A stretch of DNA of 50,954 bases from Candidatus Cacconaster stercorequi (GTDB lineage Bacteria > Bacillota > Clostridia > Oscillospirales > Oscillospiraceae), in NCBI GenBank assembly GCA_018064925.1, contig JAGHUH010000030.1:1-50954 (forward strand), written 5' to 3'. Both the position numbers and the translations under genes were made by a program. The notes beneath the pieces are model-generated. The model searched no databases, was not told the origin of the DNA, and saw only the letters and a list, made by a program, of their open reading frames with translations. How positions within the stretch are numbered: the stretch's first letter is position 1; the number at the start of each line of letters is the position of its first letter. Below are positions 17,693 through 19,300 of the stretch, piece after piece.

Positions 17693-17721
17693 TTGCATTT
17701 TTGCGTCTGCGCTCGTATAAT
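17693..17721 (+). promoter_or_regulatory. promoter of the uraA leader
   Basis: TTGCAT (17693-17698), 17-bp spacer, perfect TATAAT (17716-17721). Transcription would begin near 17728, just before the leader-peptide ribosome binding site. Confidence 0.8.
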
Positions 17722-17751
17722 AAGTAAAAAATTCGGAGGGAGCGAGACGCC

Positions 17752-17820
17752 ATGATGAACCATACCACGCACACGAAAATCAGCGTCCCCACTGTTTCTA
17801 TTTTTACTTTTGTTTTTTGA
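17752..17820 (+). CDS. 22-residue uraA leader peptide
   Basis: GGAGGGAGCGAGA precedes ATG ATG and a short frame reading MMNHTTHTKISVPTVSIFTF followed by VF and TGA. The last nine codons are extremely U-rich: 19 of 25 bases at 17793-17817 are T. The stop codon lies at the base of the attenuator hairpin. No function as a protein is expected. The arrangement is that of a leader peptide whose translation tracks RNA polymerase, as in enterobacterial pyrBI. It is too short for ordinary gene finders. Confidence 0.7.
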   Translation: MMNHTTHTKISVPTVSIFTFVF

Positions 17821-17847
17821 CCGGTTTTTTACCGGTTATTTTTTTGC
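17818..17847 (+). terminator. attenuator hairpin upstream of uraA
   Basis: TGACCGGT (17818-17825) pairs with ACCGGTTA (17831-17838) across TTTTT, with one G-U pair, followed directly by TTTTTTT. It is a compact intrinsic terminator about 60 bp before uraA. A ribosome at the leader stop codon would cover the 5' arm and prevent it from folding. Confidence 0.72.
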
Positions 17848-17905
17848 CCTGATATGTTAGCAATGAAAATGAATATAACAAAAATGAAAGAGAGGAAATG
17901 ACACA

Positions 17906-19300
17906 ATGAAACAAGAACTGGGCCAAGAGGCCATCTACGACGCCCGCACACTGGGTACCCCCCGTATGCTGGTGCTGGGTGTACAGCATCTGTTCGCCAT
18001 GTTCGGCGCCACCGTGCTGGTTCCCCTGCTGACCGGTCTGAGCGTGTCCGCCACGCTGCTGTTTGCCGGTATCGCAACGCTGTTCATGCACTTCGTCACC
18101 GGTTGGAAGGTTCCCGTATTCCTGGGCTCTTCCTTCGCCTTCCTGGGCGGCTACTTCACTGTGGTGGCCATGGGTGCCGATCTGGGAATGTCCCAGGCGG
18201 AGTCCCTGCCCTATGCCTGTGCCGGTGTGGCCTGCGCAGGTCTGCTGTACCTGATCCTGTCCGCCATCTGCAAGGCCTGCGGCAGCCAGAATGTGATGAA
18301 GTTCTTCCCCCCTGTGGTCACCGGTCCCATCATCATCACCATCGGCCTGATCCTGGCTCCCTCTGCCATCAATAACTGCTCCACCAACTGGCCCATCGCT
18401 CTGGTGGCTCTGGTGGTCATTATTGTGTGCAATATCTGGGGCAAGGGCATGATCAAGATCATCCCCATTCTGATGGGTGTTATCGTGTCCTATCTGGTGG
18501 CCGCCGTCACCGGCAATGTGGACTTCACCGCCGTGAAGGAAGCCGCATGGATCGGTCTGCCCGTGAAGATGCAGGATACCGTGTTCGGTCTGGCCGCCTC
18601 CGGTCATGTGGACAAGGGCTTCCTGATCTCCTCCATCATCATGATCGTCCCCATCGCCTTTGCCACCATGATGGAGCATGTGGGTGATATCTCCGCCATC
18701 TCCTCCACCGTGGGCAAGAATTACATCGAGGATCCCGGCCTGCACCGCACCCTGATCGGTGACGGTGTCGGTACCGCTATCGCCTCTCTGTTCGGCGCAC
18801 CCGCCAACACCACTTACGGTGAAAACACCGGCGTTCTGGTACTGACCAAGGTGTACGATCCCCGCGTTGTCCGTCTGGCCGCCATCTACGCCATCATCCT
18901 CAGCTTCTGCCCCAAGTTCTCCGCACTGATCTCCTCCATGCCCGCTGCCACCATCGGCGGCGTGTCCATCATCCTGTACGGTATGATCTCCGCTGTCGGT
19001 GTCCGCAACATGGTGGAAAACCACACCGACTTCCAGAAGAGCCGCAATGTCATCATTGCCGCCGCCATTCTGGGTCTGGCTCTGGGCATCAACTTTGCCG
19101 GCAATCTGGGTGCTGACATCACCACCGCCGGCAATAACGCCACCGGCGCCATCTCCTTCATGATCGGCGAGATGAACATCTCTCTCAGCGGTCTGGCTGT
19201 GGCATCCATCATCGGTATCCTCCTCAACGCCATTCTGCCCGGCCGCCGGACAGAATATATGCCCAACGATGAAAACTCCGGTTCTCTGGGCAAGTTCTGA
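17906..19300 (+). CDS. uraA: uracil permease
   Basis: This 464-residue NCS2-family membrane transporter with 14 helices takes up uracil with protons. UraA-type features are VLGVQHLFAMFGATVLVPLL at the N-terminus, the conserved Glu in MMEHVGDI, and GDGVGTAIASLFGAPANTTY followed by GENTGV, which contains the second substrate-binding Glu and is characteristic of uracil rather than xanthine members. It starts at ATG 17906 after AGAGAGGAAATG. It is a single-gene transcript controlled by the leader/attenuator upstream. Confidence 0.95.
   Translation: MKQELGQEAIYDARTLGTPRMLVLGVQHLFAMFGATVLVPLLTGLSVSATLLFAGIATLFMHFVTGWKVPVFLGSSFAFLGGYFTVVAMGADLGMSQAESLPYACAGVACAGLLYLILSAICKACGSQNVMKFFPPVVTGPIIITIGLILAPSAINNCSTNWPIALVALVVIIVCNIWGKGMIKIIPILMGVIVSYLVAAVTGNVDFTAVKEAAWIGLPVKMQDTVFGLAASGHVDKGFLISSIIMIVPIAFATMMEHVGDISAISSTVGKNYIEDPGLHRTLIGDGVGTAIASLFGAPANTTYGENTGVLVLTKVYDPRVVRLAAIYAIILSFCPKFSALISSMPAATIGGVSIILYGMISAVGVRNMVENHTDFQKSRNVIIAAAILGLALGINFAGNLGADITTAGNNATGAISFMIGEMNISLSGLAVASIIGILLNAILPGRRTEYMPNDENSGSLGKF

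Follow-up and report, generated by a model that had tools for sequence, protein, structure and literature searches.

How is the uraA-like permease gene of an Oscillospiraceae genome regulated when it sits behind a short open reading frame (ORF) that runs into a terminator hairpin? UTP sensing by a race between ribosome and RNA polymerase is the textbook enterobacterial case, whereas accounts of pyrimidine regulation in Bacillota centre on PyrR. Here we analysed a uraA-like gene of Candidatus Cacconaster stercorequi within a stretch of 50,954 nucleotides (contig JAGHUH010000030.1; hereafter the window), for which a preliminary description had proposed a pyrBI-like leader peptide and UTP-sensing attenuator.

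Leader architecture at uraA

The leader block sits between the divergent biotin-ligase gene birA and uraA, and comprises the following features.

17693-17721, + strand: promoter, with -35 TTGCAT at 17693-17698, a 17-nt spacer and -10 TATAAT at 17716-17721
17735-17742, + strand: Shine-Dalgarno (SD)-like sequence of the leader ORF, GGAGGGAG; a purine-rich stretch precedes the ATG in 27 listed leaders
17752-17820, + strand: leader ORF MMNHTTHTKISVPTVSIFTFVF, with ATG at 17752, 22 sense codons and TGA at 17818-17820
17793-17817, + strand: U-rich tract (19 of 25 bases are T), the proposed UTP-sensitive slow zone for RNA polymerase
17818-17838, + strand: terminator hairpin TGACCGGT-TTTTT-ACCGGTTA, with 5' arm 17818-17825, loop 17826-17830 and 3' arm 17831-17838
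17839-17845, + strand: terminator U-run of 7 T, where the short RNA left by attenuation is predicted to end
17906-19300, + strand: uraA-like NCS2 permease of 464 aa, the putative regulated gene, with ATG at 17906 and SD GAGAGGA at 17890-17896

The 22-codon ORF with its own SD sequence had thus been placed correctly in the preliminary description, recomputation returned the same T count in the tract, and the coordinates confirm that the leader TGA is the base of the 5' arm of the hairpin, with uraA following. The promoter had been called strong, which is true of its perfect -10 and its spacer length but not of its -35, which matches only 3/6 consensus bases and is weak; a consensus promoter scan of the leader region listed no promoter. 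The arrangement TTGNNN/17 nt/TATAAT nevertheless recurs at 27/27 genus loci, 12 of which have a -35 with at least 4/6 consensus bases. Folded alone, the window leader has a z of -0.84.

The gene downstream is a putative uracil permease by homology to UraA: the closest solved relatives are uracil permeases (E 2e-59), although its score of 279 bits stays under the strict cut-off of the uracil-permease equivalog (477 bits). Elsewhere, the window holds an FMN riboswitch (RF00050, 12187-12308, 111 bits) and three tandem tRNA-Leu genes (136-459, - strand), two with anticodon CAG and one with GAG.

Proposed mechanism

We propose, with a probability of about 0.78, that the uraA 5' leader controls transcription by translation-dependent attenuation, sensing UTP in the manner of E. 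coli pyrBI. Transcription would start near 17728, and a ribosome would load on the leader ORF. When UTP is ample, polymerase would pass quickly through the U-rich second half of the ORF, staying ahead of the ribosome, so that the hairpin at 17818-17838 would fold, transcription would stop near 17845 and little permease would be made. When UTP is scarce, polymerase would slow in the U-tract, permitting the leading ribosome to catch up and to reside on or near the stop codon. As the stop codon belongs to the 5' arm, the hairpin could not form under such a ribosome; read-through would follow, uraA would be expressed and uracil imported.

This scheme supposes leader translation, UTP-dependent slowing, sufficient coupling of ribosome and polymerase, the start site given above and the described direction of the response. 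Occlusion of the terminator by the ribosome is very likely, and UTP as the signal likely. The pyrBI-type features found are a leader ORF with a ribosome binding site (on sequence evidence), a late U-rich tract, a terminator that can be covered, a pyrimidine gene, and no antiterminator helix. The pyrBI-like interpretation of the preliminary description is in this manner supported by the checks presented below, with the UTP signal and the independent evolution being what we infer.

Conservation within the genus

An NCS2 search of 32 genus genomes gave a match in 29 and none in three, and the best locus per genome was read. Persistence in relatives had been predicted for the leader ORF, for its U-rich end and for the position of the stop codon in the stem, with uraA upstream regions lacking the ORF or the hairpin as the outcome that would speak against the proposal. 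Indeed, an SD-led ORF with a U-rich end and its stop codon at the hairpin base was recovered at 28 of the 29 loci, including L029, read by eye, with 24 codons, and L030 is the sole locus without a leader. The sets of 27 genus loci leave out L029 and L030, both of which were read by eye; among the 30 loci of the search, L027 represents an inner piece of the gene that starts in L031. The genus leader ORFs span 19-28 codons and end in a TGA or TAA that starts 2 bases before the ACCG core of the terminator, and the distance from -10 to hairpin is 91-123 nt. In the flanks of 1.5 kb, birA lies upstream at 24/27 loci and malQ downstream at 9/27.

The leader frame is open in all 27 genus leaders, compared to 16/27 for each of the other two frames. 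Dinucleotide shuffles gave an expectation of 14.9 open frames, and 27 was reached in 0/20000 simulated sets, with the sequences treated as unrelated. Moreover, the second base of the stop codon covaries with the 3' arm (G-C in 18, A-U in 6 and G-U in 3 leaders), being paired in 27/27. RNAalifold on the genus leaders returned no conserved helix other than the terminator, and no competing antiterminator helix.

U-richness is a nucleotide trait

In a set of 63 distinct leaders, T makes up 0.497 of the final 36 nt ahead of the hairpin versus 0.243 of the earlier part, with the higher value next to the hairpin in 60/62. Within the genus, the T fraction before the hairpin has a median of 0.56 and a minimum of 0.42. 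The preference extends to third codon positions, where the 27 genus leaders display a T:C ratio of 212:97 in the last 12 codons and 68:92 before; for comparison, wobble T:C in the uraA of the window is 79:246. C-T exchanges in either direction account for 115 of the 222 substitutions in the last 36 nt of the genus leaders. U-richness is favoured at synonymous sites, and is a nucleotide trait rather than one of the peptide.

The same ribosome occlusion could alternatively report translation status or growth rate, being set by ribosome loading or speed, with the U-tract acting as a general pause, for example one stimulated by NusG. However, the NusG pause motif TTNTTT shows no enrichment over the final 45 nt of the 27 leaders (21 seen vs 29.0 expected), a lack that also counts against the UTP reading itself, and synonymous sites favour U. 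The geometry as such requires just a ribosome near the stop codon, and at B. subtilis tlrB, as outlined in the available text of PMC12288461, NusG-dependent pausing gives time for translation of the leader peptide. Such a sensor would leave unaccounted for both that the leader goes with genes resembling uracil permeases, three loci with another NCS2 subfamily among them, and that it alternates with PyrR control (see below). We therefore deem it unlikely, although it is the most probable of the alternatives.

A second alternative is an amino-acid or arrest-peptide attenuator, where stalling on Phe, Ser or Val codons, or on the nascent peptide, alters RNA folding. F, S, V and I are abundant in the C-terminal halves of the leader peptides, as such a device might require. 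Nonetheless, the mean peptide identity is only 0.33 over the 27 genus leaders, in line with the peptide drift predicted earlier, and the 24 close pairs differ by 244 nonsynonymous versus 84 synonymous codon differences. Furthermore, neither conserved cognate codons nor alternative hairpins accompany the terminator, the only conserved helix, and there is no link to an amino-acid gene, rendering this explanation very improbable. Substitutions are distributed over the three codon positions as 150:141:201. From the open frame, the covariation and the substitution counts, it follows that frame, U-richness and stop position are maintained but not the peptide.

Specificity for uraA

Another possibility is that the ORF overlies an ordinary terminator by chance, or that it encodes a small hydrophobic peptide with a function of its own. 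Short SD-led ORFs do end in about 5% of background terminators, and U-rich codons encode hydrophobic residues. Nevertheless, under strict settings, an SD-led ORF ending in the hairpin accompanies 16/27 terminators upstream of family uraA genes versus 16/299 in the background (p 8e-12), and 12/225 background terminators matched for score. With the leader present at 28/29 genus loci and in 17 other genera, and with a peptide sequence that is barely constrained, this explanation is strongly disfavoured.

The combination with U-richness is rarer. The window and 80 uraA neighbourhoods together amount to 1.14 Mb over both strands, and all seven matches with T of at least 0.45 in them lie just before uraA. 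A separate set, made up of the window, six stretches of the own genome and 14 of G001 (902 kb, counting both strands), holds 169 terminator-like sites, seven of them with a short SD-led ORF ending in the hairpin. Among these seven, only the uraA site of the window has T of at least 0.42 in the preceding 36 nt, the next highest value being 0.39.

The leader design outside the genus

A covariance model of the leader gave matches in 61/400 family genomes at E 0.01, many of them weak. Of the 63 matches listed, 30 were fetched and the remaining 33 are mostly weak or partial; the raw count of 26 of 106 genera rests on these 63 matches. Among the fetched loci from outside the genus, 19/21 lie directly before a uraA-like permease, and the two that do not adjoin uraA (L139 and L142) were dropped. 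In addition, leaders were called automatically at 20 of 53 further family uraA upstream regions, with unrelated hairpins, and at 1/35 upstream regions of a more distant NCS2 type. Overall, automatic calls were made at 66/134 loci (27/27, 18/19, 20/53 and 1/35). The 63-leader and other-genera counts leave out L150 (repeating L140), L164 (repeating L130) and L138, the latter for an implausible TTG-led ORF call, as by eye an ATG-started ORF runs through the hairpin; L095, L132 and L201 are leaders by eye only.

The same design thereby recurs before uracil-permease-like genes in 17 other genera of the family, or 18 with the own one, extending the leader first described at the window well beyond its genus. 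The hairpins are unlike those of the genus, for instance GACAATCAC/GTGGTTGTC, GGCAATTACCC, CGGAAGCA and CGCTGAATC, and the stop-in-hairpin rule is retained: of 36 leaders from the 17 other genera, 17 have the stop codon at the hairpin base, 18 have it within the hairpin and one has it downstream of the hairpin. In each case, a ribosome terminating there would cover the 5' arm or have moved beyond it. Among deposited relatives, the cultured Pseudoflavonifractor phocaeensis An901 (L110) has a leader ORF before uraA that ends at the terminator, with T of 0.33. The T fraction before the hairpin is weak, averaging below 0.40, in 5 of the 17 other genera (g86 0.38, g13 0.39, g97 0.31, g99 0.25 and g23 0.14).

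Metagenome-assembled genomes labelled Lachnospiraceae (L061, L069, L088 and L098; L095 by eye) likewise carry leader ORFs upstream of uraA that end at a terminator or close to one, and their hairpins differ from those of the genus. At L132, L138, L171 and L201, the leader ORF apparently runs through the terminator, as in E. coli pyrL. Outside the family, 40 uraA loci of the same class, 11 of which were read by eye, yielded no U-rich leader; an ORF-hairpin call with T of 0.33 at one of them (L296) was taken as chance. This result counts against the proposal, as do the low T fractions in five genera, the genus locus that has no leader, and the family uraA upstream regions with neither leader nor PyrR control (see below).

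Leader and PyrR control alternate at uraA

The preliminary description had noted PyrR as the usual regulator of uracil genes and seen no PyrR-type element here. The absence of the element holds at the leader loci tested, but PyrR itself is encoded in the own genome (NF003549, 235.7 bits, cut-off 138), and a near-threshold PyrR RNA precedes its pyrC (52.8 bits vs a cut-off of 54). PyrR is hence present in the genome but apparently not used at uraA.

That the leader contains a PyrR site, a riboswitch or another protein-binding RNA might be entertained given this pyrR gene and the near-threshold RNA elsewhere. However, Rfam returned chance-level names only at the window locus (best E 0.36), and no PyrR RNA was detected at E 0.1 in a covariance-model check of 39 leader loci of other genera. 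Similarly, the PyrR anti-antiterminator (RF00515) was not found at the leader genes tested, and PyrR RNAs occur in 4/32 genus genomes, all below cut-off and on contigs other than that of uraA. Together with the terminator as the sole conserved structure, these observations make such an element extremely unlikely.

Among the 53 family uraA upstream regions, 20 have the leader and 9 PyrR control, whereas none has both (hypergeometric P 0.009). The nine PyrR loci adjoin pyrR, one of them also with a PyrR motif. The remaining 24/53 have neither by these screens, a class that is an overcount as the narrow PyrR pattern missed sub-threshold Rfam PyrR matches in L225, L288 and L289; a recheck of 20 of the 24 (the others being L155 and L193-L195) gave no PyrR match. 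In 80 database loci chosen by similarity to the window uraA, 58 are of the PyrR class, 46 being adjacent to pyrR and 12 having a PyrR motif. Leader and PyrR control alternate at uraA, and thus the leader stands where relatives have PyrR control.

Probable permease replacement behind the leader

The uraA of the window is 84% similar to PyrR-class uraA genes of other genera, whereas its similarity to the genes of most genus mates is about 60-66%. Congruently, in a uraA tree (150 rows, FastTree, local support only) it groups with 26 PyrR-class uraA genes (support 98), L003 and L031 fall elsewhere in the PyrR-rich clade, and L028 pairs separately with L131 as members of another NCS2 subfamily. The leader label needs 10 changes on this tree, at least 8 of them forced by starred branches.

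At L028 (1453-2781), L029 and L131, the leader precedes a permease of the other NCS2 subfamily, with 30-37% identity to uraA. The gene start at L029 resembles the L028 and L131 genes, and the nearest solved relatives of the L028 permease are also uracil permeases. The simplest reading, with birA and malQ retained as neighbours of the window uraA, is that the permease was probably replaced in place under a retained leader.

Coupling in Bacillota

The weak point of the proposed attenuation is coupling in Bacillota, where polymerase outruns ribosomes. This behaviour is described for B. subtilis in the accessible parts of PMC7858274 and PMC9226507, and Bacillota are classed at the phylum level as 'runaway transcription' in the available text of PMC13323073. 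In E. coli, as far as the consulted portion of PMC4824070 goes, a ribosome at a stop codon just upstream leaves an intrinsic terminator almost without activity, and this activity is back at a distance of about 30 bp. According to excerpts of PMC5021804, tight coupling across pyrL is said to be needed to prevent termination, and an E. coli reporter with the real pyrL hairpin terminated mostly, with an about 18-fold drop that its authors read as coupling being absent on most of these RNAs. Runaway transcription would be compatible with a switch that is off by default and opens only while polymerase moves slowly.

The spacing from stop codon to terminator was also assessed as a possible signature of coupling, with medians of 18-19 nt in the own genome and G001, 17-18.5 nt in E. 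coli and 15-18 nt in P. megaterium plasmids, from small samples and with overlapping controls. Under stricter settings and with no controls, the values were 19 nt (13 terminators) and 22 nt (10 terminators). The purine content of genes (0.515 and 0.511 vs 0.512 and 0.537) is uninformative where rho is missing.

A Rho-dependent leader, with the pyrimidine-rich tract as a Rho loading site shielded by translation, would fit the 79% pyrimidine of the 36 nt before the hairpin in the genus and the action of B. subtilis Rho on C- and U-rich RNA (available text of PMC13323073), but its probability is negligible as the curated rho cut-off is reached in 0/32 genus genomes (weak matches of up to 35 bits in 16; the control search passes the cut-off in 8/14 known genomes), with no rho match in G001, listed as 100% complete, and no Rho_N match in the own genome.

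Comparison with known systems

Leader ORFs linked to polymerase pausing and an intrinsic terminator are known in Bacillota from the B. subtilis tlrB and vmlR leaders (PMC12288461 and PMC9226507). As far as the available text of these sources describes them, both respond to ribosome-stalling antibiotics, without nucleotide sensing, and vmlR operates via alternative hairpins. In 2010, the authors of PMC2965389 stated in the accessible text that, to their knowledge and ermC apart, no leader-peptide system had been shown outside Proteobacteria and Actinobacteria before their own hisS case in bacilli. Open-access titles and abstracts returned no UTP-sensing leader in Clostridia or at uraA, which is weak evidence of novelty as subscription journals are mostly outside this search.

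PyrR attenuation of the pyr genes of Bacillota (RF00515) has the same presumed role at uraA in relatives. It differs in requiring the PyrR protein and an anti-antiterminator RNA, the latter not found at the leader loci tested, and translation is not known to play a part in it. The E. coli pyrE (rph-pyrE) attenuator is closer, as an ORF ends near the terminator and ribosome occlusion is coupled to UTP, as proposed here; its leader ORF is the full gene rph, unlike the dedicated short ORF at uraA.

If the proposal is true, a widespread race sensor in Clostridia that replaces PyrR at uraA would constitute a clear parallel solution. It also raises a question that reporters can address, namely whether ribosome and polymerase are close enough in these Bacillota for control based on coupling. 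Moreover, alternation of PyrR and leader at one gene, with a permease swap behind a constant leader, would provide a natural experiment in regulatory evolution.

The closest counterpart is E. coli pyrBI with its leader pyrL, in a comparison based on the order of parts. Both have an SD-led leader ORF that overlaps the terminator and a pyrimidine gene downstream, in the same order. As here, the second half of pyrL is T-rich (T fraction of 0.36 over the final 36 nt ahead of the hairpin), and relatives such as L132 (by eye) share its run through the terminator. The differences are that the system described here belongs to Clostridia, that it precedes a permease and not aspartate carbamoyltransferase, that the hairpin base incorporates the stop codon, that the genus leaders comprise 19-28 codons compared to 44, and that the genome also has PyrR. 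We regard the system as a likely pyrBI-like race sensor on a clostridial permease, probably convergent with the enterobacterial one. It appears fairly probable that a nucleotide gauge consisting of nothing but ribosome, U-tract and terminator arose in Oscillospiraceae separately from that of Enterobacteria, in a supposedly uncoupled phylum, as a portable module that was kept through a permease swap and stands in for PyrR at uraA.
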